64,000 nucleotides of DNA from Granulimonas faecalis (GTDB lineage: Bacteria; Actinomycetota; Coriobacteriia; Coriobacteriales; Atopobiaceae). The DNA lies in the NCBI RefSeq assembly GCF_022834715.1, contig NZ_BQKC01000001.1:1896501-1960500 (forward strand), given 5' to 3'. The position numbers were made by a program, and so were the translations under genes. Each line of letters opens with the position of its first letter. Position 1 is the first letter of the stretch. Below are positions 44,578 through 64,000 of this stretch, in pieces. The notes beneath the pieces were generated by a model, which did not search any database, was not told where the DNA came from, and was given only the letters and a program-made list of their open reading frames with translations.

Positions 44578-44626
44578 TGCGGTCCTTGTCTTTGCAGGGT
44601 GATCGAACCCCAAAGGGGCCTTGGAA

Positions 44627-44655
44627 ATGATACGTCCCCGCTTGTAACTCGACAA
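44627..44655 (-). promoter_or_regulatory. promoter of the YidC-TagF operon
   Basis: TTGTCG (44650-44655), 17 bases, TATCAT (44627-44632) on the minus strand, starting transcription about 40 bases before the GTG start. Confidence 0.6.
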
Positions 44656-44685: not shown

Positions 44686-45633
44686 TTAGGAGGACGCGCG
44701 CCTGCCCGGGACGAGCTGGCTCCAGTCGTCGGCCGAGGCGAGCACCGTGCCGCAGAGAATGGCTATGCAGCACAGCACCTCGACGGGGCTGGGGACGTGG
44801 CCGAGAAGCACCATGCCCAGCACCACGGCCCAGGCGGAGTAGGAGATGTTGGCGGCCATGGCCTTGGCGGCGCCGATTTTGTCGATGCCCTTGTAGTAGA
44901 AGAGGTACGACACGGTGCCCGCCAGCGCCGCTCCCGCCACCACGGCCGTGGCCGGCGTGGCAAAGACCTGGGCGGCAAAGGGCCACGCCGCGAAGAGCGG
45001 CAGGATGACCACGAGGTACACGAGGCCCGAGGTGGTCTCGCGGATCTGCAGCGCCGTCTCGTTGTCCACGGAGTCGTCGCGCATGCCCCACGCCAGCAGC
45101 ACGGCCTCGCTTCCCCAGCCCACCACGCAGGCGAGGGCGGCCGCGATGCCCACCATGGCGTTGCCGGGCATCTCCATGTCGCTTGCGGCCGCGCCCATCA
45201 CGATGATGGCAGCCATGGCCACGGCCAGGGCGACCCAGCGCTTGGGCTCCATTTTCTCCTTGAGCGCGAACACGGCCAAAAAAGCGCCAAAGGCGGGATA
45301 GAAGCTGGAGATGATGGCCGTGATGCCCGGGCCCAGCTCGTTGATGGCCACCACGTAGCCCGTCATGCCGAAGGGGCCGCCGAGAAGCGCCGCTGCGGCC
45401 ACCACCTTACCGCTGCGGGTCCTGAGGGCCGCCACGGTGTCTTTAAGGCGCCCGCGCACCGCCATGAGCAAGAACATCCACACCGCGCAGAACACGTCGT
45501 GGAACGCGGCACTCACGATGGCCGCGAAGGCCACGGCCTCGGCAGTGCCCACATAGGGGGCCATCGAGAGGGCGATGCCCAAGATAACGGTGTCGAGGCC
45601 CCACAGAAGGCCGCTGGCAAGCCCGTATCCCAT
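44686..45633 (-). CDS. DMT-family permease, LicB-like (choline or related amine uptake)
   Basis: 315 residues, ten transmembrane helices in two EamA repeats (drug/metabolite transporter superfamily). Typical segments are GLLWGLDTVILGIALSMAPY at the N-terminus and LVYLVVILPLFAAWPFAAQV later. In phosphocholine loci the equivalent gene is licB, the choline permease. It lies 41 bases after the LicC-LicA fusion gene, so choline uptake fits, though DMT sequences alone do not reveal substrate. ATG at 45631-45633 has AGAAGGAAAGGAACC before it. Confidence 0.8.
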   Translation of the reverse strand: MGYGLASGLLWGLDTVILGIALSMAPYVGTAEAVAFAAIVSAAFHDVFCAVWMFLLMAVRGRLKDTVAALRTRSGKVVAAAALLGGPFGMTGYVVAINELGPGITAIISSFYPAFGAFLAVFALKEKMEPKRWVALAVAMAAIIVMGAAASDMEMPGNAMVGIAAALACVVGWGSEAVLLAWGMRDDSVDNETALQIRETTSGLVYLVVILPLFAAWPFAAQVFATPATAVVAGAALAGTVSYLFYYKGIDKIGAAKAMAANISYSAWAVVLGMVLLGHVPSPVEVLCCIAILCGTVLASADDWSQLVPGRRASS

Positions 45634-45674
45634 GACGGTTCCTTTCCTTCTGCCCCGCGCCGGGGCGCTGGCGT

Positions 45675-47447
45675 CTAAGCGATGCCGTAGAGGTCGGCGG
45701 CCAGGGCGAGGTACTTCTTGGCGTAGCGGTAGTAGATGTAGAGCCACTCGCCGATGAAGTCGCCGTCGCTCTCCTTGAGGAGGCTCCAGCAGTACCAGCA
45801 CCAGCCGCACATGCCGATCATGGCCAGGTTGTGGCGGCGCTCCTCGGGCGTGGCCTTGCCCTCGTAGTAGAGGTCGATGGCCTGCTCCACCTCCTCGGGC
45901 GAGAGCTCGCAGCACACCGAGAACGTGGCCAGGTCGTTGGCCGAGTCACCCATGCCGGCGTACTCCCAGTCGATGAGGTTGAAGGTGCCGTCTTGCTCCA
46001 CCAGGAAGTTGAGGTAGAAGAAGTCGTTGTGGGTGACGGTGACAGGGGCGTCGTCTTGCGCCATGGCCCCGTGGACCCGCTCGGCCAGCTCGTTCCAGCG
46101 CCCGTACTCCGGCACCTCGATGGGGCCCTTCTCCCGCAGCAGGGCCTCATAGCGCTTTGCCTCGTCATAGAAGCCGAACGTGCTTTTGAGGATGATGCCC
46201 GACGTGTGAAGCTTGCGGGCAACGGCCATGGCCTGCGCGAGGCCCTCGGGAGTGTGGGCGTCGATGGTGGTGGCACCGGGCACGAAGCGCGAGATCTTCC
46301 AGCCCTCTTCCGGGTTTGCGCAGATAAACGTGGAGTCGAGGCCCATGTCCCTGGCCGCCGCGAGCGCGGCGAGCTCGCTTTTGCGGTCGATGATGTTCTC
46401 CGTGCCGATGCCGGGATGGCGGTAGACGTACTCGCCGTCGTTGGTGGAGAAGTGGCAGGAGAGGTTGGTCAGGCTCTCCTTTAGGGGGTAGACGTCGCAG
46501 ATCTCGGCGCGCGAGCAGCCCAGCGCCCCCGTGATGTTGTCGATGATCGCAGAGTCGATGTTGTCGAGGAAGAGCGGGTCGAACTCGCGCAGGTCGTCCA
46601 GGGAGTCGAACTCGTGGATGATGGGCCGCTCATAGCGGCGGATGGCCATGGGCAGCTCGTCGATGTGGTCGATGAAGATCTCTTCCCAGAGCTTGGGGGC
46701 CGTGGCCGGGCGGTCGTACTCCTCGTCGAGGATCTGGCGGAAGCGTCTGGAGAAGGCGCGGTCGAAGTAGACCTGGCCAAGCATGTACCAGCCGTCGGCA
46801 CCGCCGATCTCCACCTTGGTGATACGGCCGTGGGGGCCGCAGGTCATGACCCACTCGGATGTCTGCCCCTCGGCGTACTGGGCCGCGTAGTAGGAGCCCC
46901 ACACGTAGGCCTTGAAGGGGTTCTCCTCAAAGTAGTCGTCGGAGCTGCAGATATAGGTGTTGGCGAGCTTGTCTTCCACCGCCTTGAGCGAGGAGTTGTT
47001 GTTGCGGGAGGCGTACTCGCGGTTCACGACGATGGCGACTTCGGGGTGCTTGTCCTCCAGGTAGAAGAAGAGCTCTTGCTTGTAGCCCACCACCACGTAG
47101 ACCTTGGGCACGCCGGCCTCGAGAAGCTGCTCGATCTGGCGCTCTATGAGCACCTGGCCGCGCACTTTGAGCAGGCCCTTGGGCCGCTCGTAGGACAAGG
47201 GCACGAAGCGGCTGGAAAGGCCTGCCGCCATGATCACGGCATTGTCCACGCGGTAGGGCTCCATGGCCTCACGGCCCGCCTGGGTGATGGCGCCGTCGCA
47301 AACGAGCCCGTCCGCCTCGAGCGCGCGGACCGCCTTGTTCACCGTGGCCACGCCCAGATGGGCCGCCAGGGCGCACTCCCTTTGCGTGTGGCGGCCTCCG
47401 TCCATAAGGGTGCGCAAAACCCTGAAGCCGTTGTGGTCCAAAGCCAT
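45675..47447 (-). CDS. winged-helix + LicC-like cytidylyltransferase + LicA-like kinase fusion
   Basis: 590 residues, three domains. Residues ~1-65 are a winged helix (HTQRECALAAHLGVATVNKA recognition region). Residues ~66-300 are a nucleotidyltransferase (VIMAAGLSSR at 71-80, ERPKGLLKVRGQ, CSSDDYFEENPF) like LicC, which makes CDP-choline from CTP and phosphocholine. Residues ~310-590 are a choline-kinase fold: Brenner motif HND at 473-475 in THNDFFYLNFL, and IDWEYAG at 492-498. So uptake, phosphorylation and activation genes sit together (with the permease downstream). ATG at 47445-47447 follows GGGGAGGG. The operator-like site in its promoter suggests self-regulation, like NadR. Confidence 0.88.
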   Translation of the reverse strand: MALDHNGFRVLRTLMDGGRHTQRECALAAHLGVATVNKAVRALEADGLVCDGAITQAGREAMEPYRVDNAVIMAAGLSSRFVPLSYERPKGLLKVRGQVLIERQIEQLLEAGVPKVYVVVGYKQELFFYLEDKHPEVAIVVNREYASRNNNSSLKAVEDKLANTYICSSDDYFEENPFKAYVWGSYYAAQYAEGQTSEWVMTCGPHGRITKVEIGGADGWYMLGQVYFDRAFSRRFRQILDEEYDRPATAPKLWEEIFIDHIDELPMAIRRYERPIIHEFDSLDDLREFDPLFLDNIDSAIIDNITGALGCSRAEICDVYPLKESLTNLSCHFSTNDGEYVYRHPGIGTENIIDRKSELAALAAARDMGLDSTFICANPEEGWKISRFVPGATTIDAHTPEGLAQAMAVARKLHTSGIILKSTFGFYDEAKRYEALLREKGPIEVPEYGRWNELAERVHGAMAQDDAPVTVTHNDFFYLNFLVEQDGTFNLIDWEYAGMGDSANDLATFSVCCELSPEEVEQAIDLYYEGKATPEERRHNLAMIGMCGWCWYCWSLLKESDGDFIGEWLYIYYRYAKKYLALAADLYGIA

Positions 47448-47481
47448 GAGGCCCTCCCCTGCGATTCGTTCGTATATGGAG

Positions 47482-47510
47482 AGAATCCTCTTGTTCGGAA
47501 CAAATGTCAA
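47482..47510 (-). promoter_or_regulatory. promoter with internal operator, choline locus
   Basis: Minus strand: TTGACA (47505-47510), 17 bases, GATTCT (47482-47487). The spacer contains the palindrome TTGTTCCGAACAA (47491-47503), placed to block polymerase when bound. The half-site TGTTC recurs at the second fusion-gene promoter. Confidence 0.75.
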
Positions 47511-47595
47511 TATGAAAAAACAGAACACACCGCCCCCCCCCTGCGCTCCCTCCCGCGCCTGCACCCCCCCCCTTCCGGCTGCACCCCGCCTCTTG

Positions 47596-48800: not shown

Positions 48801-48931
48801 GGAGAAGAACCTTTCCCGTATGCTGCCGGCACGCGCCGGCAGCCACCCATCGTGAACCCTGAACGAAGGGTATGGTACAGAGAAACCCGTTGCCCTTGCC
48901 GAGCACCACACCTCTAACACCGGGAGAAGCC

Positions 48932-49774
48932 ATGCCTCACAAGCCCTACCCCGAAGGCACCCTCGAACGCCTTCAGGCAGAGATGACCGAAATGCTCGCC
49001 GTCTTTGACGAGGCGTGTCAGAAGCTGGGGCTCACCTACTTCATCGACGGCGGCACGGCCTTGGGCGCCGCGCGCCACGGCGGCTTCATCCCCTGGGACG
49101 ACGACGTGGACGCGGCGATGCCCGCGGCCGACTACCGTCGTTTCCTGGCCGAGGGCGCCTCTGCGCTGCCCGAGGGCTACTCGCTCCATACCTGGGAGAA
49201 CACGGAGCGCTTCCCCACGCTGTGGGCCAAGATCTGGAAGGACGGCACCCGCTTTGCCGACGCCCCGGCCGTGGAGGCGGGAATGGGCCAGCCCATCTTC
49301 ATGGACGTCTTCCCCTCCGTTCCCCTCGACGCCGACCCGGGCATCGCGGACCGGCAGCGGCGTCGCATGCTGTTCTGGCAGCGGCTCAGCTACCTCAAGT
49401 TCATCGCGCACCCCAAGAACGTGCCGAGCGCCGCGGCCCAGGCTGCCTGCGTGGCGGCGCATGGCGTGCTGTCCTGCGTGCCCCAACGCTTCATCGCCCG
49501 CGAATTCGAGCGCTCCTGGCGCTGCGAGACCCCCGGCGACCTGTGGATAGACCCTTGCTACGCGCAGTACGATCCCATGCCCGTCGACTGTCTGCTGCCC
49601 TGCCAGCGGGTGAGTTTCGACGGCATCGAGACCTGGGCGCCCCACGACCTCGACCGCTATCTCACCCGCATGTACGGCGACTGGCACAAGCTCCCGCCCG
49701 AGGAGGAGCGCTACACCCACGCGCCCGAAGTGCTGGACTTTGGCGACGGTGTCAACGTGGCGAAGCGCAGGTAG
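48932..49774 (+). CDS. licD: LicD family phosphotransferase
   Basis: 280 residues. The hallmark segment FIDGGTALGAARHGGFIPWD followed by DDVDAAM is intact, as are the later conserved FMDVFPSVPLD and C-terminal WAPHDLDRYLTRMYGDW. LicD proteins transfer phosphocholine from CDP-choline (or a similar CDP-linked group) to a sugar of teichoic acid or another glycan. With the choline permease and kinase/cytidylyltransferase nearby, it is the probable final enzyme. ATG at 48932-48934 follows CGGGAGAAGCC. A TATGGT box lies ~60 bases upstream. Confidence 0.9.
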   Translation: MPHKPYPEGTLERLQAEMTEMLAVFDEACQKLGLTYFIDGGTALGAARHGGFIPWDDDVDAAMPAADYRRFLAEGASALPEGYSLHTWENTERFPTLWAKIWKDGTRFADAPAVEAGMGQPIFMDVFPSVPLDADPGIADRQRRRMLFWQRLSYLKFIAHPKNVPSAAAQAACVAAHGVLSCVPQRFIAREFERSWRCETPGDLWIDPCYAQYDPMPVDCLLPCQRVSFDGIETWAPHDLDRYLTRMYGDWHKLPPEEERYTHAPEVLDFGDGVNVAKRR

Positions 49775-53674: not shown

Positions 53675-54904
53675 TCACACGCGGCGGACGAACAGCCCGC
53701 AGAAGGGCTTGGGCGTGAACCAGGTGGACTTGGGGGGCATGAGCTCCCCGGCGTCGGCCACGGCCATGAGCTCGTCGATGGCCGTGGGGCACACCGTGAA
53801 CGCCACGGCGTCGCCGGCCTCGCGGGCGGCGGCCTCCAGCGCTTCCGGGCCCACGGTGCCGGCCACATAGGTCAGGCGCGGGTCGCGGCGCGGGTCGGCC
53901 ACCGAGAGCACCGGCCCCAGCACCCGCTCCTGCAGGGCCGAGACGTCCAGCGCCGCCACCGGGTCGTCCCCCTTGGACGCGGGCGCCCGGAGCAGCCACC
54001 AGTGCGCGCCGTCGAACATGCCGAACGCGCCCTTCTCGGCAGGGGCCACGGGGCCGTCCGCCGGCGCCGCCGAGAAGCCCGCGGCCTCCACGGCGGCAAC
54101 GAGCCCCTCGCGCCCGGCCTCGTCCACGCCGGTCACCATGCGGTGGTACGGCAGCACCTTGAGCTGCCCGGCGGGGAACATCGCCACGAGCACCCGGTTG
54201 CAGGGAGCGTCGGCGGGCAGGGACGGGTCGGCCGCGCGGCGTGCCAGGGCAACCCGCACGGCCGAGGCGGCCCTGTGGTGCCCATCGGCCACGTAGGCCG
54301 CGCCCACGCCCGAGAAGGCCTCCGTCAGCGCGCGCCCCCGACCGTCGGCGGGCACGCGCCACACGGTCTGGGCCACGCCGTCGGCCTCGAAGCGGTAGAG
54401 CGGCTCGCCGGCCTGCACGTCGGCCACGGCGCGGGCCACGTCGTCGCTGTCGCCGAAGGTCAGGAACACCGGGCCGGTCTGGGCGCCCAGGGCGTCGATG
54501 TGCGCCGCGCGTGCGTCCTCCTTCTCCTCCAGGGTGGACTCGTGACGCCGCACAGTGCCGTCGAGGAACGACTCCACCGGCAGGCACCCCACCACGGCCG
54601 TCTGCCGATGGCCTCCCTCCTCCATGGTGTAGACGTAGAGGCTCGGCTCGTCGTCCTCCACCAGCACGCCGCGCTCCCGGCGCCACTCCAGAAGGTCGCG
54701 GGCCTTGGCGTAGGCCTCCGTGAGGTCCACTTGGGCCTCCAGCGGGTAGAGGGTGTCGGGCCAGTCGATGGCGAGGAACGACAGCGGGTTGTCCGCCACC
54801 AGTTCGAAGGCGCGGTCGCGGTCGAAGACGTCCAGTGGCGCCGAGACCTGGCGCCCCACCAGTCGGGGCGCCGGCCTCAGGCAGCGGAACGGGGTGAGCT
54901 CCAT
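53675..54904 (-). CDS. DUF1015 family protein
   Basis: 409 residues. The family is recognised from FRCLRPAPRLVGRQVSAPLD at the N-terminus, NPLSFLAIDWPD, and the conserved AYVADGHHRAASAVRVA (the DGHHR motif). C-terminal PPKSTWFTPKPFCGLFVRRV is also typical. Biochemistry is uncertain; the ParB/sulfiredoxin-like fold and DGHHR motif resemble those of serine kinases of the SerK type, so phosphorylation of a small metabolite is a possibility (inference). ATG at 54902-54904, five bases after the dehydrogenase-like gene; ribosome binding site weak. Last gene of the second activation cluster. Confidence 0.8.
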   Translation of the reverse strand: MELTPFRCLRPAPRLVGRQVSAPLDVFDRDRAFELVADNPLSFLAIDWPDTLYPLEAQVDLTEAYAKARDLLEWRRERGVLVEDDEPSLYVYTMEEGGHRQTAVVGCLPVESFLDGTVRRHESTLEEKEDARAAHIDALGAQTGPVFLTFGDSDDVARAVADVQAGEPLYRFEADGVAQTVWRVPADGRGRALTEAFSGVGAAYVADGHHRAASAVRVALARRAADPSLPADAPCNRVLVAMFPAGQLKVLPYHRMVTGVDEAGREGLVAAVEAAGFSAAPADGPVAPAEKGAFGMFDGAHWWLLRAPASKGDDPVAALDVSALQERVLGPVLSVADPRRDPRLTYVAGTVGPEALEAAAREAGDAVAFTVCPTAIDELMAVADAGELMPPKSTWFTPKPFCGLFVRRV

Positions 54905-54909
54905 GGCAG

Positions 54910-55977
54910 CTACCGGTAGAGGTCCAGCAGGCCGTCGCGGGTCTCCGGCACGCCCTCGAGCTCCCGCTCGGGCCTGGCGGCGGCCACATACCAGCCCCAG
55001 ATGTCGTCCAGGGCCGGGGTGGCCACACCGGCGGCGGCCGCCACGTCGCGGATGGCCTTGAGGCCGTAGGCGAAGTCGGCCGAGAAGTAGCGCGACGAGA
55101 AGTCCGGCACCCAACGGCCGGCCTCCGTCTCCCTCATGGGCGAGCGCAGCCCCGCGAAGGCCGGGATGGACGAGATCTTGCGCGTCATGGACGGCACGTC
55201 GGGGCTCTCATAGTGCTCCGTGAGCGGCCGTACCCCGGAGAGGTCGAGCTCCGGCAGGGCGGCGCACACGGCCTGGACCTCGGCGTCGGCGGCGAGCAGG
55301 GCCTCGGACGCGGCGTCGTCCCAGCCCTCGTAGAACAGGTGGTTCTCGGGGTAGGAGACGCCGGGCCCCCAGTCGGAGAACATCGTGCGGATGCGCGAGG
55401 TGTGCAGCACCGGGTTGGACGGCGTGAGCGTCATTGCCAGGTAGCTGCCCAGGCACGTCGCCGGCATCCGGAAGAGGTCCGCGAGCTCGCCCGCCACCTC
55501 CGCCGTCTCGGACGACGGGATGGCCGCCACTTGAAGCGACGGCTTGCGCCCCAGCTCAAAGACGCTGCGGCCCCGCTCGGCGATGCGGGCCACGGAGTGC
55601 ACGCGCTGGAGGCCGCACACCACGGCGCCGGCCTCGAGCAGCCCGGCGCAGAAGAACTCGGCGTCGGCGCCGGGAACAAAGCACACGCGCTGGCCCGGCT
55701 CCACGAGGGGCGCGAGCTCGGCGCACAGGCGCCCGAACAGGTAGACCGGGTAGGTCACGAAGACGTAGCGCGCTCCGGCGGCCCCCTCGGCGAGGTCGGC
55801 CGTCACGCAGGCGAGCTCGCCGGTGGACAGCACGTCGCCGTCCGGCGCGAGCACGTCCACCGTGCGCGACCACTCCCGCGGCCGCGAGGTCACCACCGCC
55901 ACCTCGTGGCCCCGGGCGGCGAACTCCGCCGCCATGAGCATGCCGACGTTGCCGGCACCCACCACACAGATTCTCAC
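54910..55977 (-). CDS. NAD(P)-dependent opine dehydrogenase-like protein
   Basis: 355 residues. Rossmann GAGNVGMLMAAEFAARGHEV at the N-terminus; C-terminal octopine/nopaline dehydrogenase-like domain (TLTPSNPVLHTSRIRTMFSD and ENHLFYEGWDD). Family members reductively join an amino compound and a 2-keto acid. Together with the other genes it could alkylate an amino-alcohol phosphate, or act on an unrelated substrate. GTG start at 55975-55977 with GTTAGGAGGGGCC upstream, eight bases after the preceding gene. A ketopantoate-reductase-like role is the main alternative. Confidence 0.78.
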   Translation of the reverse strand: MRICVVGAGNVGMLMAAEFAARGHEVAVVTSRPREWSRTVDVLAPDGDVLSTGELACVTADLAEGAAGARYVFVTYPVYLFGRLCAELAPLVEPGQRVCFVPGADAEFFCAGLLEAGAVVCGLQRVHSVARIAERGRSVFELGRKPSLQVAAIPSSETAEVAGELADLFRMPATCLGSYLAMTLTPSNPVLHTSRIRTMFSDWGPGVSYPENHLFYEGWDDAASEALLAADAEVQAVCAALPELDLSGVRPLTEHYESPDVPSMTRKISSIPAFAGLRSPMRETEAGRWVPDFSSRYFSADFAYGLKAIRDVAAAAGVATPALDDIWGWYVAAARPERELEGVPETRDGLLDLYR

Positions 55978-55985
55978 GGCCCCTC

Positions 55986-57812
55986 CTAACCCAGGTAGCC
56001 GTGGAGCGCGGCCACGAGCCTGTCGTCGTCGGCCCGGTCGCGCACGGCGATGCGCACGAACTGGCGCCCGTCGCGCACCACCTTGGCCGAGAGGTCCTTG
56101 ATGAAGAGCTCCCGCTCGCACAGCAGGCGCTCGGTGAGCTCGGAGGCCGTCATGCCGCCCTCGAGCTCCACGAACAGGTAGTTCGCCTGGCTCGGCATCA
56201 CGCGCAGGTGCGGCACGGCGGCCAGCTCCGCGGCGAAGCGCGCCCGCTCGGCGCGGAGCTCGTCGAGGCTGCGGGCGTAGTCGGCCTTGTACTTCTCGGC
56301 GACCTGCAGGTAGAACTCCGCGAGGGAGTTGATGTTCCAGATGGCCACGTCGCCCTTGAGGGCGTCGACGAGCCCCTTGTCGGCCGAAGCCGCCACACCC
56401 AGGCGCAGGCCCGGCACGCCGTAGCTCTTGGAGATGGACTTCACCACCACCATGTGGGGGAAGCGCGCCAGGCGCCCCTCGTCGAGGAAGCTGCTGCCCG
56501 GCTCCTCGGCGAAGTCCGCGAACGACTCGTCGTAGACCAGGCGCACGCCGTTGTCCTCGCACCACTGGGCCACGCGGCAGACGTCGGCCACCGGCAGGTA
56601 GTTGCCCGTGGGGTTGTCGGGGTTGATGAGCACGAGCTGGCGCACGGGGTGCTCGGAGAAGAAGGAGACGATGTCGTCGGCCGTGTAGGCGAAGTCCGGG
56701 TCAGAGGGCACGTAGGTCACGGCGTCGGCGGCGCGGCCGCGGTTGGGGTACTCCTCGAACGTGGGACGGATGTGGCCGCAGGGGCCCTCGACGGCGGCGT
56801 CGGGGTTCTCAAAGAGCGCCTTGATGAGCTCGGCAGCGCCGTTGCCCACCACCACGCGGTCCTGGGACACACCGAAGTTCTTGGCCGCGAGCAGGGAGTT
56901 CACGCGCATGCCCGAGGGATACTGGGTCACGAGGGTCTCGAAGCTGGCCTTCATCTCGTCCATGAGGCGCTTGGGCGGGTAGAACGGGTTCACGAGGTAG
57001 CAGAAGTCCACGAGGTGCGGATAGCGCCAGTAGCCGCCGTAGCGCGAGGCCACGAGGCGGGTGCGCACCTCCTCGCCCACGGCGAACATGGACTCGGCGA
57101 TGTCGAGGTCCTGCAGGTCGTCGATCTCGTACCACTTCTGGCCGGTGAGGCGCTTGGCCAGGATCTCGCTCGTGTCGACCATGGTGATGACGCGGAGCAC
57201 CTGCTCGTAGTACTCGTTGTTGCCCAGGGCCTGGCTGTAGGCCTTGAGGAACGGCACGTAGACGTTGCGCGAGAACTCCTTCGAGAACTTGTAGATGTTG
57301 ACCGTCTTGTAGTAGCGGTCCATGTCCTCGAAGCGGAACCGCTTGCCAGGCACGAACGACAGGATCGAGTCGTCGTCGTCCAGTGTGACCACGGTGCCGT
57401 CCATCCAACTCTCGTACCTGTCGACGAGGGCGAGGGTGGGCCTGGGGTCGTCCACGAGCTCGGAGAGCACGCCCTCCTCGAAGATGAGGTCGCTCTCCAG
57501 GAGGAGGGTGTCGTCCTCCTGGAGCTGCCCGGCGGCCAGGGCCAGCGAGTAGATGTTGTTGGTGCGGTCGTAGACGGGGTTGTCCACGAACTCGATGGGC
57601 GTGGCCACGTCGAGGGTGGAGATGTAGTCCTTGAGCCTGCCGGCCTCGTAGCCCACCACGACGACGATGCGCGAGAGCCCCAGGCGGTCGAGCTGGGTGA
57701 GGGCGCGCTCGATCATGGTGACGCCGTTGACCTTGACCATGCACTTGGTGTTGTGGGCGGTGAGCGACTTCAGGCGCTTGCCCATGCCGGCCGCGAGAAT
57801 CAGTCCTTGCAT
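55986..57812 (-). CDS. nucleotidyltransferase-aminotransferase fusion (PntC-AEPT-like)
   Basis: 608 residues. Residues 1-~240 are a sugar-phosphate-type nucleotidyltransferase (LILAAGMGKRLKSLTAHNTK; LLLESDLIFEEG; ends YEIDDLQDLDIAES). Residues ~250-608 are a class I/II PLP enzyme of the HisC/CobD type (VVVGNGAAELIKALFENP, LINPDNPTGNYL, VYDESFADFAE, VKSISKSYGVPGLRLG with the PLP Lys). The same architecture is described for PntC-AEP transaminase, which cytidylylates 2-aminoethylphosphonate, but no PEP mutase is in the window. A phosphoserine-decarboxylase-like use to make CDP-ethanolamine is the other option. ATG at 57810-57812 has TGAGGAGAGG before it. Confidence 0.85.
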   Translation of the reverse strand: MQGLILAAGMGKRLKSLTAHNTKCMVKVNGVTMIERALTQLDRLGLSRIVVVVGYEAGRLKDYISTLDVATPIEFVDNPVYDRTNNIYSLALAAGQLQEDDTLLLESDLIFEEGVLSELVDDPRPTLALVDRYESWMDGTVVTLDDDDSILSFVPGKRFRFEDMDRYYKTVNIYKFSKEFSRNVYVPFLKAYSQALGNNEYYEQVLRVITMVDTSEILAKRLTGQKWYEIDDLQDLDIAESMFAVGEEVRTRLVASRYGGYWRYPHLVDFCYLVNPFYPPKRLMDEMKASFETLVTQYPSGMRVNSLLAAKNFGVSQDRVVVGNGAAELIKALFENPDAAVEGPCGHIRPTFEEYPNRGRAADAVTYVPSDPDFAYTADDIVSFFSEHPVRQLVLINPDNPTGNYLPVADVCRVAQWCEDNGVRLVYDESFADFAEEPGSSFLDEGRLARFPHMVVVKSISKSYGVPGLRLGVAASADKGLVDALKGDVAIWNINSLAEFYLQVAEKYKADYARSLDELRAERARFAAELAAVPHLRVMPSQANYLFVELEGGMTASELTERLLCERELFIKDLSAKVVRDGRQFVRIAVRDRADDDRLVAALHGYLG

Positions 57813-57821
57813 TACCTCTCC

Positions 57822-58622
57822 TCAGCGTTGGAGGGTGTTCACGACGTAGCGCGGGTCCATGGCCTGGAGCTCCGCGAGGGAGTCGATCTCGGCGACGTCG
57901 TCGAAGGTCACGGGCTCCACGTGCACGTCGTAGCGGTCGCGGGCCAGCACGCAGGGGACGTCGTCCCAGAAGCGCTGGCGGTTGGCCTCCTCGGCGAAGG
58001 CCACGGGCAGGTCCTCGGCCAGGCGGGCGCCGTCCTCGGCGGTCCAGTAGCTCACACCGAACATGTGGCAGCAGTCGGTGCCGCCGCGGTGCAGGTCGAG
58101 GATGCGGCCGTCGGCGTCGGTGTCGAAACACCAGTCCTCGGTGGACGCCACGGGGACGCCCAGGTAGCACGACCGGTATCGGTAGGGGGTGATGATGGAC
58201 GGGTTCTTGATGTAGAGGTCGCTCTCGAACACGTAGGCGTTGCGGAACCGGTCGCCCGCGGCCACGGCGCTCGAGATGTTGTTGGTGGAGTCGAAGAGCG
58301 GGTTGTGGACCAGCTCCACCTGCGGCCAGCGGCGGCGCAGGAGCTCGAACTGCTCGGCGCGGTAGCCGGTGACCACGCAGATGCTCTCGATGCCGGCGTC
58401 CACCAGGGGCTTGACGATGGTGTCGATGATGGGCGTGCCGCAGACGTCCACCAGGGGCTTGGGCGTGTTGACGGTGATGGGCGCCAGCCGGCTGCCCAGG
58501 CCGCTGGCCAGAAGCACCGCCTGGCGGGCGCGGTAGGGCTCGAGGTCCGCCAGATCGGCCTCGGTGGCCGTGCCCGACCTCCAGCTGTCCAGGCGCTCGT
58601 CGAACTCTGCGCGGGTGAGCAT
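57822..58622 (-). CDS. LicC-like nucleotidyltransferase, stand-alone
   Basis: 266 residues. VLLASGLGSRLAPITVNTPK is the nucleotide-binding loop, VDVCGTPIIDTIVKPLVDAG follows, and YVFESDLYIKNPS carries a metal-binding Asp. About 30 residues precede the fold (TRAEFDERLDSWRSGTATEA), not a winged helix. Related to the nucleotidyltransferase halves of both neighbours. Likely transfers CMP (or another NMP) to a phosphorylated small molecule; the substrate is unknown. ATG at 58620-58622, two bases after the upstream stop; GGAGGGAGC lies 14 bases before it. Confidence 0.82.
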   Translation of the reverse strand: MLTRAEFDERLDSWRSGTATEADLADLEPYRARQAVLLASGLGSRLAPITVNTPKPLVDVCGTPIIDTIVKPLVDAGIESICVVTGYRAEQFELLRRRWPQVELVHNPLFDSTNNISSAVAAGDRFRNAYVFESDLYIKNPSIITPYRYRSCYLGVPVASTEDWCFDTDADGRILDLHRGGTDCCHMFGVSYWTAEDGARLAEDLPVAFAEEANRQRFWDDVPCVLARDRYDVHVEPVTFDDVAEIDSLAELQAMDPRYVVNTLQR

Positions 58623-58624
58623 GC

Positions 58625-60433
58625 TCACAGGGTTGCTCCCTCCTGGGCGCGCTCCGGCGCCCCGATGCGTCTCTCTGCGGCGGCCGAGAAGGTCTTGGCC
58701 GCCTTGTACCAAACGTAGAGCCACTCGCCCACGGGGTTTCCCATGGCCTCCTTGTACATGGCCCACACATACCAGTACCAACCCACCACGGCCACGGCCG
58801 AGAGGAACCGCGCCTCCTCGGCGGCGGTGGCGGGGCGCCCCAGGTAGACCGGCAGGACGGCCAAGGCCTCGTCGACGGAGTAGCCCGAGCCCTGGGCCAC
58901 AAAGTTGCCCAAGTCGCAGAACGGGTCGCCCATGGCGGCGTACTCCCAGTCGACGAGGCGCATGGCGTCGTCGGTCACCAGCAGGTTGGGGCCGTAGAAG
59001 TCGTTGTGGCAGAGCACCGGGTCGCCGGCGTCCGCGGCCATGGCGCGGGCGAGCACGGCCACGCGGGCGGCCAGGCCGTCAAAGTCGCGCGGCAGCGGGT
59101 AGTCTCGGCGGCGGAGGAGCCCGGCGATCTTGGTGCCCTCCTCGAAGAAGTCGAACGACCAAGGCGACGTGGCGCCGCTCCCGTGGAGCCGGCGCACGAG
59201 GGCCAGGGCCCGCCCCACGTCGCGGGGGTCGCGGTAGTCGAAGTCCCGGCAGCCCTCCACGAACCGCGAGACCTTCCAGCCCTGCTCGGGGTCCTCGAAG
59301 ACGTAGGTGTCGTCGAGGCCGAGGTCGCGGGCCACAGCCAGGGCGTGGGCCTCGGCGGCGCGGTTGACGATCTGGTCGGTGCCGGCGCCGGGGTGGCGGT
59401 AGATGTAGCGGGTGTCCCCCACGGAGAAGACCGTGGAGAGGTTGGTGAGACCGGCCGAGACGGGCGCGAGGCCGCGGATGTCGTCGCGGGGGCAGCCCAG
59501 GGTGGTGCAGATGTTCTCGAGGATCGCGGAGTCCACGTTGGCGAAGAAGTCGTGGTCGAAGGCCATGAGGTCGCCGAGGTAGTCGAACTCGAGGACCGCG
59601 CCGGCCGGCAGCTCCTCCACGGCCATGGGGAGCTCGGCGGCATGCTCGGCGAAGACCTGCTCCCAAAGCTTGGGCGCCGTGGCCGGGAGGGCGTACTCCT
59701 CGCCGAGGATGGCGAGGTAGCGCTCTGCGAAGGCACGGTCGAGGTAGGCGGGGCCGAGGAGGTAGAGGCCGCCATCGCCGCCGCGGGACACGTGCGCGAT
59801 GTGCCCCTGGGGGTCGACCGTGACGACCTGCTCCTCGGTGGGACCCGTGGCGCGGCAGACCGAGAAGACCGACTCGTAGCGGTAGGGGCGGAAGGGGTTC
59901 TCGCAGAAGTACTCGTCGGACGACACCACGTAGGAGTTGCCGAGCCAGGCGCGCGCGGCCCAGACCGAGCCGTTGTTGTTGCGGGCGGCGTGGTCGGGGT
60001 TCTCCACGAGGGTGACGCCGAAGTCCTCCTCCAGGTAGAAGAAGGCCTCCTTCATGTGGCCCACCACCACGACGACGTCCCGGACGCCGGCCTCGCGGAG
60101 CTGGCGGATCTGCCGCTCCACGAGCACCTCGCCGCGCACCTCGAAGGCGGCCTTGGGGCGCTCGAAGGACAGCGGCGACAGGCGCGTGCCGGCACCGGCC
60201 GCGAGAATCACGGCGTTGCGCACGCGGTAGGGCTCGAGGGCGGCGAGACCGTCCGGGGTGGGGGCACCATCGGGGGCGAGGAGGCCGTGGGAGCGGAGGG
60301 TGCGCGCGGCCTTGTTGACCGAGCCCACCGAGACGCGGCCGGCCGCCGCAACGGCACGCTGGGGGCGGGGGCCGTTGAGCGCCGCGTCTTGGAGCACGGC
60401 GAACTCGTAGCGGGTGAGGGTGCGCGGGGACAG
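58625..60433 (-). CDS. second winged-helix + LicC-like + LicA-like kinase fusion
   Basis: About 602 residues, same three domains as the protein at 45675-47447: winged helix ~1-70 (AAAGRVSVGSVNKAARTLRS), nucleotidyltransferase ~70-300 (VILAAGAGTRLSPLSFERPK; VVSSDEYFCENPF), choline/ethanolamine-kinase fold to the end (HND at 476-478 in LCHNDFYGPN; VDWEYAAMGD from 494). The best start is CTG at 60431-60433: TTAAGGAGAGACCC is ideally placed, and alignment with the paralogue begins there; the GTG at 60479-60481 lies inside the operator-like repeat. Heads the second cluster. The substrate need not be choline. Confidence 0.85.
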   Translation of the reverse strand: MSPRTLTRYEFAVLQDAALNGPRPQRAVAAAGRVSVGSVNKAARTLRSHGLLAPDGAPTPDGLAALEPYRVRNAVILAAGAGTRLSPLSFERPKAAFEVRGEVLVERQIRQLREAGVRDVVVVVGHMKEAFFYLEEDFGVTLVENPDHAARNNNGSVWAARAWLGNSYVVSSDEYFCENPFRPYRYESVFSVCRATGPTEEQVVTVDPQGHIAHVSRGGDGGLYLLGPAYLDRAFAERYLAILGEEYALPATAPKLWEQVFAEHAAELPMAVEELPAGAVLEFDYLGDLMAFDHDFFANVDSAILENICTTLGCPRDDIRGLAPVSAGLTNLSTVFSVGDTRYIYRHPGAGTDQIVNRAAEAHALAVARDLGLDDTYVFEDPEQGWKVSRFVEGCRDFDYRDPRDVGRALALVRRLHGSGATSPWSFDFFEEGTKIAGLLRRRDYPLPRDFDGLAARVAVLARAMAADAGDPVLCHNDFYGPNLLVTDDAMRLVDWEYAAMGDPFCDLGNFVAQGSGYSVDEALAVLPVYLGRPATAAEEARFLSAVAVVGWYWYVWAMYKEAMGNPVGEWLYVWYKAAKTFSAAAERRIGAPERAQEGATL

Positions 60434-60472: not shown

Positions 60473-60513
60473 GATGTTCACGATAACATGAATATAACTT
60501 ACAGGTGAACATC
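60473..60513 (-). promoter_or_regulatory. operator-like inverted repeat of the second fusion gene
   Basis: GATGTTCAC and GTGAACATC are perfect 9-bp arms (60505-60513 and 60473-60481 on the minus strand reading) with 23 bases between, centres 32 bp apart, about three helical turns. The AT-rich spacer (GTTATATTC, GTTATC) probably holds the -10. The half-site TGTTC matches the choline-locus operator. Confidence 0.65.
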
Positions 60514-60652
60514 ATAGCCCCGAGCGGAACACCCCTCCCGGCGGCACGGGCCCCCTCCACCCAAAGCCCGCACCGGGAGGCGACGCACCCCCTCTCCACT
60601 CCTGCGCCTCTCCCCCTCTCCACACCCCTCCCCTCCCTGCACCCCCTCTCTG

Positions 60653-60777
60653 CACCTGAATGCGTCTGAGGGCGACTTCCGACATCGGCCCACGGCAAAA
60701 TCCGCCCCCATGCGCGTTCAGGTGGCCCGATTCCGCCCTCGACCGCGTTCAGGTTCGTCCTCAGACGCGTTCAGGTG
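60653..60777. repeat. B-family repeat cluster B5
   Basis: One forward unit at 60653-60675 faces three reverse units (60702-60724, 60733-60755, 60755-60777). Just right of it are GATTTG x3 and a repeated GCGGGGGTGCGGGGCGAT-like 18-mer to 60856. The 437-base gap 60434-60870 holds these, the operator above, a pyrimidine-rich stretch (60540-60650) and no gene. Confidence 0.85.
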
Positions 60778-60870
60778 CGGATTTGGATTTGGATTTGGGG
60801 TGCGGGGGTGCGGGGCGATGCGGGGGTGCAGGGCGATGCGGGGGTGCGGGGTGCGGCGGTACCGGGAGGG

Positions 60871-62439
60871 TCACGCCTTCGCGCGCGAGACGAGCCCCCT
60901 CGCCACGGCCCCCAGCCAGGTGCCGCCCTGGGGCCGGTAGGGCTCCCCTCCCAGGATCAGCCCCTCCACACGCAGCTCGCCCAGGCGCTCCGGGCCCAGC
61001 GCGAAGGGGTCGGCCGAGAGGACCGCCATGTCGGCCACCTTGCCCATCTCGAGCGAGCCCCGCTCGTCCTCGTCGAACGTGGCCCATGCGCCGTTGTAGG
61101 TGCACATACGCAGGGCCTCTGCCACGGTGAGCGACTCCCCCGGCACGTCGTGGTTGCAGGCGCGCTGCATCCAGAGCACCGGGTCGGGGTCGGTGCAGGG
61201 CGCGTCGCTGCCGGCCGAGAGCACGATGCCGGCGTCCCAGTAGGTGCGCAGCGGGTTGAGGCGGTCGGCCCGGTCGCGCCCGAGGATGGAGGCCAGGTAG
61301 GCGTCGGGCTCCTGGGGCCAGCCGATGAAGCTGGTCTGCATGGGAAACTGGATGCCGTACTCGCGGCAGATGGCCAGGCCCTCCTCGGTGGGCAGGCACG
61401 CGTGGATGATGCCGTGGCGGTGGTCGTCGCGCGGCGTGTCGTCGAGGGCGGCCTTGAGGGCGTGGGCGGCCTGGTCGAACGCGGCGTCGCCGATGGCGTG
61501 CATCTCCATCTGCAGCCCGGCGCGGTTGGCCTCCACGCAGAAGTCGCGCACCTGCCCGTCGGTGTAGTAGAGCACGCCGTTGCCGCCCTCTTCGTCGGCA
61601 TAGGGCTCCCTGAGGGCGGCGTCATGGCTGCCGAAGCACCCGTCCAGGGCGCAGGCGAAGCAGCCGCCGATGCGTGGCAGGCCGCGCCTCCTGGCTACGG
61701 AGACGTCCATGGACTGCGGGAACACGCGCACCTGAAAGCCGGAGCGGGCGCTCCTCGCCAGCCAGGTCTCGAGCGAGATGTCGAGGTCGCCGGCAAAACC
61801 CACGCCCGACACCGAGTGCACCATGCCGATGCCCTTGGACGCCAGATAGTCCATGGCACCCTGGATGTTGGAGACGAGCTCGGGGATGGAGAGGCTGCCG
61901 GTGACGTGGTCGGACACCGCAAAGAACGCCTCCTGGTTCATCTCGCCGGTGTCGGGATGGTAGCCGCGGAGGCCGGCTACCTTCTTCTCGACGAGGGTGA
62001 GCAGCGCCGAGTTCACCACGCAGGCGTGGCCGTCGTACTTCACCATCATGATGGGCCGGTCGGGACAGGCCTCGTCGAGCTCGGCGCGGGAGAGGAGGCG
62101 GCCCTCCTCCACCGAGTAGGGCGACGCACCGAAGGCGATGAGGAGCTTGGAGGGGCTCTTGCGGGCGAAGTCGGCCACCATGGCCTGGATCTGGGCGTTG
62201 GAGCGGGCGTCCATGACGTTGAGGCCGGCGTGGAACGTGGCAAAGGAGGCCAGGTGCTCGTGGGTGTCCACGAAGGCAGGGCAGAGGGCCCGCCCGTCCA
62301 GGTGCTCCCGCGGGGCACGGGCGTAGGCCTCGGGCAGCCCTTCTCCCACAAAGACGATGCGGCCGCCGTCCTCCACCAGGTAGCGAGCCCGGGTGTCCCG
62401 GGCGTCGACGGTGAGGACGGTCCCCTCGTACACCTTCAT
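60871..62439 (-). CDS. YtcJ-like metal-dependent amidohydrolase
   Basis: 522 residues. Amidohydrolase superfamily, family 3: metal-binding His60-x-His62 in FVDTHEHLASF, HAIGDAAFDQAAHALKA, and GSDAPCTDPDPVLWMQRA near the C-terminus, ending with the usual GSLEMGKVADMAVLSADPF beta-sandwich segment. Members hydrolyse N-substituted amides or imidazolone-like compounds; the substrate here is unknown. Cytoplasmic, no signal peptide. ATG at 62437-62439 with ACGGAGGGAGAGCC upstream. Monocistronic between two B-repeat clusters. Confidence 0.9.
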   Translation of the reverse strand: MKVYEGTVLTVDARDTRARYLVEDGGRIVFVGEGLPEAYARAPREHLDGRALCPAFVDTHEHLASFATFHAGLNVMDARSNAQIQAMVADFARKSPSKLLIAFGASPYSVEEGRLLSRAELDEACPDRPIMMVKYDGHACVVNSALLTLVEKKVAGLRGYHPDTGEMNQEAFFAVSDHVTGSLSIPELVSNIQGAMDYLASKGIGMVHSVSGVGFAGDLDISLETWLARSARSGFQVRVFPQSMDVSVARRRGLPRIGGCFACALDGCFGSHDAALREPYADEEGGNGVLYYTDGQVRDFCVEANRAGLQMEMHAIGDAAFDQAAHALKAALDDTPRDDHRHGIIHACLPTEEGLAICREYGIQFPMQTSFIGWPQEPDAYLASILGRDRADRLNPLRTYWDAGIVLSAGSDAPCTDPDPVLWMQRACNHDVPGESLTVAEALRMCTYNGAWATFDEDERGSLEMGKVADMAVLSADPFALGPERLGELRVEGLILGGEPYRPQGGTWLGAVARGLVSRAKA

Positions 62440-62534
62440 GGCTCTCCCTCCGTTGGCCGCGCCAGCAGCATCCCAAGGGTAGCAGCTGGGGGGGCGCCCC
62501 TCGGCCCGGCCGCCACTCCTCGGCGCCCCCTCCC

Positions 62535-62637
62535 CACCTGAACGCGTCTGGGGGCGGATTTTCCCCACCTGAACGCGGATGAGGGCGACTTCCGGCGGTT
62601 TTGCCCGCGGGGAGTCGCCCTCAATCGCGTTCAGGTG
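62535..62637. repeat. B-family repeat cluster B6
   Basis: Two forward units (62535-62557, 62566-62588) face one reverse unit (62615-62637). It separates the amidohydrolase gene from the surface protein gene. Confidence 0.87.
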
Positions 62638-62705
62638 CCGAGGGGGGGGTGGGGGCCGGGGGCCGGGGACGGGCCGAGGGGCTCGCCGCCGCCCGCCGCC
62701 CGCCG

Positions 62706-64000
62706 CTACGTCGTGCGCCTCCTCACCGCCACGGCCACCGTCGCCGCCACAGCCACGGTCACGCACGCGCCCAGGGTGACGGCGCCGTCCACCGTGCGGT
62801 CGCCGGTCACGGGCAGCACGGCGAGGCCGCGCAGGACCCGGCGCACCGTCCTCTCGGTACGGCTCGTCGTGGTGCCGCCGGTGCCGGGAAGCTCGGCCTC
62901 GGGCCGCACCGCCTCGATGCGGGCCGAGCCGCCCGCCTCGATGGCGACGGTGCCGCCGGCCTGGGGGCCGCCCTGGGCGTCGGGGTCCTTGGGGCCGAAC
63001 CCGCTGCCCGTGGCGCTCGCCTTGTTGACCACCTCGCCGCCGTCGGCCGGGACGGACAGGTCGCAGGCGTAGGTCACGCGCCACACCTCGCCACCGGCCA
63101 CGTCGCCCACCGGCACCGTGAGCTCGCGGGTCTCAGGGTCGTAGAGGGCGTGGGGGAGGCGCTCCCGGGAACCGTCGGGATGCTCGAGCCACAGGGAGGT
63201 GGTCACGAGGGACAGGCCGTCGGGCAGCACGTCGTGGACCGTGACGTCCTCCCACACGGTGCCCACCATGGCGTTACCCACCTCGATGGTATAGGTCACC
63301 TGGTCGCCCTCGTAGAAGCCGCCGTCCGAATCGTCGTCGGCCACGGTCTTGGAGAGGGAGGGCTGCGGCACGGCGAACTTGATCCAACCGGCCGGGAACA
63401 CCTTGTCGGAGCTCTCGGTGGGCACCTCGCGGTCCTCGGGCGTGTCGCCGTCCACGGTGGCCACGTTGCCCACGTCATGGGCGCCCGGGGTGGCATCGTC
63501 CACGGCGGAGCGGGCGATGGAGCCCTCGAAAACCACGATGGCGCTGGAGCCGCCGGGGATGTCGCCCACGGGCACCGTGAGAGTGTGGGTGTCCTCGTCG
63601 TAGACGTCGGCGGAGTCCAGGGACCCGGTGGTCCCATCGGCATAGGTCACGCGCACCGAGGAGCGGTCGAGGTCGATGCCGGCGGGCAGCAGGTCTGTGG
63701 CCCGGGCGTTCTTGAGCAGGGAGTCGGGCACGTCGTTGGTCACGGTGACGGTGTAGCGCAGCACGTCGCCCACCTGGGCATCCACGGCGTCGCCTCGGGT
63801 GAGGTCGGTGACGGCCTTGGTGACCGTGGGCTCGGGGTCGTCGGGCAGGACCTGGTCGCCGCCCTTGGGAAGGGTCTCCTCCACCTCCGCGGGCACCGGC
63901 GAGCCGTCGGGGTTGGTGCCCGACGCCTGGACTGGGATGGTGACCGGGGGAACGGCGTCGGGGTCGTTGGGCGGGTCGAGGACCTTGCCGTTCACGGTGG
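62706..64000 (-). CDS. LPxTG surface protein with DUF11-like repeats, 5' end outside the window
   Basis: The last ~431 residues are present. Two tandem beta domains of the conserved-repeat/DUF11 type each begin with an xTKAVTD/LSKTVAD strand and continue DVLRYTVTVTND...LLPAGIDLD and DQVTYTIEVGNAMVG...VLPDGLSL, with VPVGDIPGG and VPVGDVAGG after them. Such domains form stalk-like or pilin-like proteins, often with isopeptide bonds. The C-terminus has two sorting motifs: LPGTG, and 25 residues later LPVTG followed by a hydrophobic helix and RRRTT. The reading frame is open to base 64000, so the start lies beyond the window. Confidence 0.85.
   Translation of the reverse strand, partial: TVNGKVLDPPNDPDAVPPVTIPVQASGTNPDGSPVPAEVEETLPKGGDQVLPDDPEPTVTKAVTDLTRGDAVDAQVGDVLRYTVTVTNDVPDSLLKNARATDLLPAGIDLDRSSVRVTYADGTTGSLDSADVYDEDTHTLTVPVGDIPGGSSAIVVFEGSIARSAVDDATPGAHDVGNVATVDGDTPEDREVPTESSDKVFPAGWIKFAVPQPSLSKTVADDDSDGGFYEGDQVTYTIEVGNAMVGTVWEDVTVHDVLPDGLSLVTTSLWLEHPDGSRERLPHALYDPETRELTVPVGDVAGGEVWRVTYACDLSVPADGGEVVNKASATGSGFGPKDPDAQGGPQAGGTVAIEAGGSARIEAVRPEAELPGTGGTTTSRTERTVRRVLRGLAVLPVTGDRTVDGAVTLGACVTVAVAATVAVAVRRRTT

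Follow-up and report, generated by a model that had tools for sequence, protein, structure and literature searches.

Closest described systems and the predicted pathway

Head groups such as phosphocholine and 2-aminoethylphosphonate (AEP) are contact points for host proteins and antibodies. Two described systems for activating such groups are relevant here, namely the Lic pathway of phosphocholine decoration (LicA/LicB/LicC/LicD) and the PntC-AEPT protein of Treponema denticola (Tde1415, PDB 6PD1/6PD2; PMC6697681), in which an N-terminal cytidylyltransferase of the LicC/PntC type is fused to a pyridoxal phosphate (PLP) enzyme and which activates a small amino-phosphorus head group with cytidine di- or monophosphate (CDP/CMP) for surface tailoring. 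We analyzed a 64,000-nucleotide stretch of the Granulimonas faecalis genome, hereinafter the window (G000:C1:1896501-1960500 of a 2.23-Mb assembly; 70% GC), that carries an operon of five genes, denoted g1 to g5. In its logic, this operon resembles the Lic and Pnt pathways, yet it fits the definition of neither. It has a kinase and a LicC-type cytidylyltransferase in common with the Lic pathway, with LicD as the further shared component, and another cluster at 40-50 kb of the window resembles that pathway directly; the operon differs in adding an amidohydrolase, an extra nucleotidyltransferase (NT), a reductase and a predicted de novo synthesis from serine.

We estimate a probability of about 45% that the product of the operon is an amino-alcohol phosphate derived from serine, N-modified and activated with CDP, which is passed on to the surface-polymer machinery. 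In the scheme that we infer, in which every substrate and product, the keto acid, the order of the steps, the acceptor and the role of the regulator are predictions, the DUF1015 protein g5 would phosphorylate free serine, giving O-phospho-L-serine. Two steps would then fall to g3, whose CobD-like half would decarboxylate this intermediate to ethanolamine phosphate and whose NT half would produce CDP-ethanolamine. Next, the reductase g4 would join a 2-keto acid to the primary amine and reduce the resulting imine, which would yield an N-carboxyalkyl-ethanolamine head group; other species would rely on a mu-crystallin-type reductase for this job. Hydrolysis, kinase and cytidylyltransferase steps by the amidohydrolase, g1 and g2 would probably carry a salvaged amino alcohol to an equivalent CDP-activated form, and either the single LicD or a YidC-glycerophosphotransferase fusion would transfer the head group to the polymer. 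The scheme draws on computed observations, i.e., protein families, folds, catalytic residues, operon structure and its recurrence, a reductase swap, gene fusions and a DNA dyad.

More tentatively, the locus might represent an undescribed, widespread pathway that leads from serine to CDP-N-(carboxyalkyl)ethanolamine via the g3 fusion, with DUF1015 as a new bacterial serine kinase family, free exchange of two unrelated imine reductases for the final reaction, and repression of the operon by its own kinase-cytidylyltransferase via the helix-turn-helix region of the latter. In gut bacteria, the product would decorate polysaccharides and teichoic-acid-like polymers. If true, this would assign functions to a fusion protein with at least 552 matches, to DUF1015 and to a pair of reductases, would predict that gut bacteria derive a surface head group from serine rather than from scavenged choline, and would offer a clear gene signature by which such polymers could be recognized in genomes.

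All five genes are located on the minus strand, with intergenic gaps of 2, 9, 8 and 5 bases, and three of them (g1, g2 and g3) encode NT domains; on both counts the original prediction, made from the sequence of the window, was accurate. Relatives from different families and phyla show the same operon arrangement, which is therefore not due to chance. The search for g3-fusion relatives among one-genome-per-species contigs gave at least 552 matches, of which the 80 most similar were kept, so that the percentages from the 86 g3-fusion loci describe a biased sample. Metagenome-assembled Lachnospiraceae, Oscillospiraceae, other Clostridia and Coriobacteriales make up most of the kept relatives, and Actinomycetaceae, Treponemataceae and Selenomonas are represented by single records. 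Genes in the relatives are our own open reading frame calls, and co-occurrence was counted in 299 genomes of the order.

The cytidylyltransferase-PLP enzyme fusion

The 608 aa protein g3 (55986-57812, minus strand) is a fusion of a LicC/PntC-like cytidylyltransferase with a PLP domain resembling the decarboxylases CobD and SMUL_1544. The literature searched yielded no described function for an NT-PLP fusion of this type and nothing useful on a phosphoserine decarboxylase paired with a cytidylyltransferase. A profile search of the PDB with the NT half retrieves PntC (6pd1, 70.7 bits), then LicC (1jyk, 63.2 bits). Residue E106 is invariant (47 of 47); in our own reading of the alignment, it corresponds to Glu104 of PntC, which faces the amine of AEP (PMC6697681).

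The PLP domain belongs to class I/II (PF00155), and its best model is that of CobD (TIGR01140, 178 bits, 3e-52), ahead of the hisC model (141 bits, 4e-41). The best structural relative of this half in the profile search of the PDB is 6oux (219 bits), and a Foldseek search with the g3 structure model (mean predicted local distance difference test score, pLDDT, of 90.5) identifies 6oux as SMUL_1544, a decarboxylase of Sulfurospirillum multivorans, with a template modelling (TM) score by target length of 0.79-0.86; the TM scores for CobD are 0.84-0.85 (0.84 for 1lc5). The PLP-binding lysine, K462, is retained in 46 of 47 homologues. SMUL_1544 acts on O-phosphoserine, the source of the ethanolamine linker of norcobamide, and, to go by the title of a paper on it, this protein reportedly governs norcobamide synthesis. 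A comparable reaction is described in Campylobacter, where Cj1436 decarboxylates L-serine phosphate to ethanolamine phosphate for the capsule (PMC11800397); the likeness of Cj1436 to g3 is one of described activity. SMUL_1544 and CobD are the closest PLP relatives of g3 by both sequence and fold. From these similarities, the PLP half of g3 is predicted to decarboxylate O-phospho-L-serine. It differs from SMUL_1544, CobD and Cj1436 in being fused to a cytidylyltransferase, and its product is predicted to enter a CDP route, unlike the product of Cj1436, which goes to amide formation, and that of SMUL_1544, which goes to the cobamide linker. In one fusion homologue (L108:10001-11812), glutamine replaces the PLP lysine (SISQSQG vs SISKSYG), and its PLP half may be inactive.

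The original prediction had compared g3 to PntC-AEPT and proposed a CDP-linked amino-phosphate or phosphonate as the product. The amino-phosphate part of this proposal stands, given that all three NT domains are LicC/PntC-like, but the phosphonate part does not. The PLP half of PntC-AEPT is a class V AEP transaminase, whereas that of g3 is a CobD-like class I/II domain, and 6pd1 aligns by sequence to residues 2-241 of g3 only, that is, to the NT half. A search of the genome (assembly 96% complete) for the phosphoenolpyruvate (PEP) mutase gene pepM detected none above the cut-off of 31.5 bits (the best scores were 20.8 and 18.7 bits), and the PEP mutase motif was found in one of the 86 g3 loci. 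Hence a phosphonate origin was rejected, and the predicted product is a phosphate ester, with an imine reductase accompanying g3 as a further difference from PntC-AEPT. That g3 is a PntC-AEPT analogue activating AEP is thus strongly disfavored, despite its PntC-like NT half (71 bits), the two-domain layout that it shares with PntC-AEPT and the one locus with the motif, L100. There (L100:11843-15561), the genes near the g3 homologue encode a class V aminotransferase and a fusion of PEP mutase with a CTP_transf_like domain; therefore, the g3 fusion can coexist with a genuine phosphonate route at one locus.

The imine reductase

The gene g4 (54910-55977, minus strand, GTG start) encodes a 355 aa protein of the octopine dehydrogenase family (PF02317, 3.1e-25, 89.4 bits against a cut-off of 30; 3c7a, 5.9e-23). 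Residues H192, R296 and D301 of g4 align with H212, R324 and D329 of the scallop octopine dehydrogenase (3c7a), which we take to be its catalytic His/Arg/Asp, and are invariant in all 31 homologues encoded next to g3. Apart from the shared fold family and these residues, there are differences: the position of T143 of octopine dehydrogenase is occupied by an arginine (R125 of g4) that is invariant in the adjacent homologues, and the position of E142 is Gln, Glu or Asp, so g4 may differ from octopine dehydrogenase in its amine and keto-acid specificity.

With adjacency defined as a distance within 400 base pairs (bp) on the same strand, an imine reductase is next to g3 in 43 of the 86 loci, mostly only a few bases away and often in the absence of other genes of the module. 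In 31 of these loci, the reductase belongs to PF02317 and, in the remaining 12, to PF02423, the ornithine cyclodeaminase/mu-crystallin family, to which the likeness of g4 is at the level of the fold family; the two never occur together. Among cultured carriers of the fusion, Butyrivibrio sp. AE3009 (L059) has the mu-crystallin type, and Lachnospiraceae bacterium XBD2001 (L065) has no reductase next to g3. A direct exchange is apparent in two sister species of one genus (L159 and L160), where the flanking genes are 90-99% identical but the slot between g2 and the gene for the kinase of the 40-50 kb cluster is occupied by the octopine type in L159 and by the mu-crystallin type in L160, two proteins that share no similarity. 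Such a swap in the same slot is good evidence that both families perform the same step. Because enzymes of both families can form or reduce imines, N-carboxyalkylation is the likeliest chemistry: g4 is predicted to catalyze reductive amination of a 2-keto acid, giving an N-carboxyalkyl head group. In the genomes of the order, members of the octopine dehydrogenase family co-occur with both g3 (P = 4e-6) and the amidohydrolase (P = 5e-6). Thus, the opine-type head-group modification envisaged in the original prediction gains support from the adjacency and from the invariant residues. Literature searches on carboxyethylamino ethyl phosphate, and on octopine dehydrogenase together with LicD, returned nothing useful.

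In two relatives (L179:6817-10636 and L180), an octopine dehydrogenase homologue is encoded together with a stand-alone HisC-like PLP enzyme and a fusion of a TagD-like cytidylyltransferase with a Gfo/Idh domain, and at L164:14023-17356, LicD is found with the same HisC-like enzyme and TagD-like-Gfo/Idh fusion, without octopine dehydrogenase in the trio. These loci look like a parallel route that employs an unrelated cytidylyltransferase.

The DUF1015 protein as a predicted serine kinase

The last gene, g5 (53675-54904, minus strand), encodes a 409 aa DUF1015 protein (PF06245, 2.4e-75), a predicted free L-serine kinase. For its AlphaFold model (pLDDT 95.6), the nine top PDB matches found by Foldseek are SerK of Thermococcus, its Pyrococcus relative and SbnI of Staphylococcus, with the probability of 1.00, E-values of 1e-7 to 3e-6 and TM scores by target length of 0.50-0.62. 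The likeness extends to neighbors from serine metabolism, whereas DUF1015 proteins are longer and have no detectable sequence similarity to SerK or SbnI. A 2025 survey lists "DU1015" among the fusions of the ParB-CTPase fold (PMC12704722). The literature searched contained no function or activity for DUF1015, nor anything useful on a serine kinase role.

DUF1015 is present in 37 of 60 relatives, usually as a single gene. In 16 of 30 loci (L110-L139), serA lies within 1.5 kb of it, which supports a serine kinase role for the DUF1015 family as a whole. The source genome has one serA-linked copy (L135) in addition to g5. In one relative (G010), the sole DUF1015 gene adjoins the g3 homologue, and such direct adjacency is seen at L026 and L037 (about 0.09 expected, P ~0.004). 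Taken together, the SerK/SbnI fold, the serA neighborhood and the adjacency to g3 lead us to infer that g5 is a predicted serine kinase dedicated to the operon.

Evidence against the proposed scheme and alternative products

Several observations weigh against the proposed scheme, starting with those on the PLP half of g3. Its score of 178 bits is below the curated cut-off for TIGR01140 (290.55), so that it is not filed as CobD itself, and the position of CobD R323 is occupied by lysine. HisC-type aminotransferases are close to this domain and score well on it, which makes transamination possible. As regards g5, a sequence profile search started from DUF1015 did not find SerK, so that the two are linked by fold only, and DUF1015 is adjacent to g3 in only a few loci. 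The likeness to HisC speaks for an alternative in which another amino alcohol is made, with the PLP half acting either as a transaminase that converts dihydroxyacetone phosphate (DHAP) to (S)-serinol phosphate or as a threonine phosphate decarboxylase that yields 1-amino-2-propanol phosphate, and with CDP-serinol or CDP-aminopropanol then being N-alkylated. There are precedents for both activities, since CobD proper uses threonine phosphate and Cj1437 of Campylobacter produces serinol phosphate from DHAP by transamination for the capsule (PMC11800397). Nevertheless, we regard this alternative as unlikely, albeit a serious contender, because the protein closest to g3 by sequence and fold, SMUL_1544, is tied to norcobamide synthesis and because the operon encodes a predicted serine kinase, SerK being inactive on threonine (PMC5120207).

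The remaining difficulties with the serine-to-N-carboxyalkyl-ethanolamine scheme concern the reductase and the salvage module. In 43 of the 86 loci, there is no reductase next to g3; both the reductase and the amidohydrolase module are also found where g3 is absent; and the roles of the third NT and the amidohydrolase fit no unique scheme. Accordingly, the product of the fusion could be plain CDP-ethanolamine; the reductase and the amidohydrolase/kinase/NT module would then be devoted to a different substituent of that polymer, without acting on ethanolamine at all. The presence of three NT domains does suggest more than one CDP product. The reductase, however, accompanies g3 in the other half of the loci, often without other genes of the module, and two unrelated imine reductases alternate in this place, so we consider separate substituents rather improbable. 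The reductase occurs with either module alone, and the simplest reading of this is that the two modules converge on one kind of primary-amine head group, with g3 and g5 supplying it from serine and the amidohydrolase, g1 and g2 by salvage, as the scheme assumes.

The g1-g2-amidohydrolase module and a candidate operator

The protein g1 (58625-60433 or 60481, minus strand) consists of an N-terminal helix-turn-helix-like region, a LicC-like cytidylyltransferase and a LicA-like kinase; its start is uncertain, being either GTG at 60481 or CTG at 60433, the latter preceded by AAGGAG. In a search of all PDB sequences with the profile of g1 homologues, LicC (1jyk) comes first with 211 bits, as it does for g2, a 266 aa LicC-like cytidylyltransferase (57822-58622, minus strand; 177 bits, 5.6e-51). 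The best sugar NTs score below LicC and PntC in the searches with g1, g2 and g3 alike, and specificity for sugar phosphates, which would contradict the original prediction, was rejected at the family level. The kinase half of g1 (matches to PF01636 and PF01633) has a bacterial choline kinase, 4r77 (156 bits), as its nearest relative; by family, this is a LicA-like choline kinase, with choline as a candidate substrate. The N-terminal region is homologous to the winged helix of the paralogue in the 40-50 kb cluster, the helix being detected by Pfam in the paralogue only. The architecture ascribed to g1 on first inspection is borne out by Pfam and the PDB profiles, with the helix assigned by this homology.

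The functional unit reaches upstream of g1, where the amidohydrolase gene and a 35-bp dyad, both overlooked in the original prediction, belong to the same module. The amidohydrolase (Amidohydro_3 family, 522 aa, 60871-62439; PF07969, 3.8e-61; NCBIfam models give weak partial matches) is encoded directly upstream of g1 on the same strand. Its association with g1 and g2 is conserved, copies 66-78% identical adjoining g1/g2 homologues in relatives. In seven relatives, g1 and g2 form a single fused protein of 882-960 aa and therefore act together. In 8 of the 86 loci, the flanking sequence fetched around g3 contains all three genes of this separable module, always with a reductase beside g3 (8/43 vs 0/43, P = 0.003). 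An obligate partnership of the amidohydrolase with g3 was rejected, given that the former is present in 24 of the 299 genomes and only 5 of the 24 also carry g3.

The dyad, GTTCAY-N23-RTGAAC, is located upstream of g1 (60476-60510) and is a probable operator. With a length of 34-36 bp (GTTCAY-N22/24-RTGAAC), it precedes the g1/amidohydrolase module in the source genome and in L159, L160, L161, L162, L163, L165 and L181. In the other fetched loci, about 1.6 Mb in total, it was not seen, save for two further copies of loci already counted. The helix-turn-helix-like region of g1 may bind this dyad as a candidate autoregulator. A sigma-70 promoter scan found no match. GC-rich non-coding stretches with repeated CACCTGAACGCG-type motifs are present on both sides of the amidohydrolase gene (60513-60871 and 62440-62860).

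Connection to the surface polymer genes

The genome encodes exactly one LicD and one PF04464 protein, and both are in the 40-50 kb cluster. The LicD-family transferase (48872-49774, plus strand; PF04991, 3.5e-29) is a candidate for CDP head-group transfer; the PF04464 protein (42559-44655, minus strand) is a fusion of a YidC/Oxa1-like domain (PF02096, 4.7e-27) with a CDP-glycerol glycerophosphotransferase (PF04464, 1.8e-5). The same cluster contains the Pfam-identified paralogue of g1 with the same three regions (45675-47564, minus strand), which likely acts on choline, next to an EamA transporter (44686-45915, minus strand; PF00892, 2.6e-18) in a LicB-like position that might mediate choline uptake. 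In L159 and L160, homologues of the operon are contiguous with homologues of the 44-50 kb genes, including the second kinase-NT fusion, the EamA transporter and LicD. A LicD or glycerophosphotransferase-type gene is present in 56 of the 86 g3 loci. The proposed link to the polymer genes is thus upheld, and the conclusion that both clusters serve one polymer is well supported.

A different destination, with CDP-ethanolamine feeding phosphatidylethanolamine synthesis instead of a surface glycopolymer, appears very unlikely. The genome does encode two CDP-alcohol phosphatidyltransferases, but neither is near the operon and one is in a pgsA context (rimO/cinA-like neighbors, in our own reading), whereas the homologous clusters are found with LicD, glycerophosphotransferase, flippase and sugar genes.

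Homologues of the YidC-glycerophosphotransferase protein are encoded near the g3 fusion in L024/L053 and L077, and another relative has a 931 aa fusion of a YidC-like and a sulfatase-like domain (L093:8414-11209). Fusions of YidC-like domains are an unusual pairing that recurs beside g3 loci.

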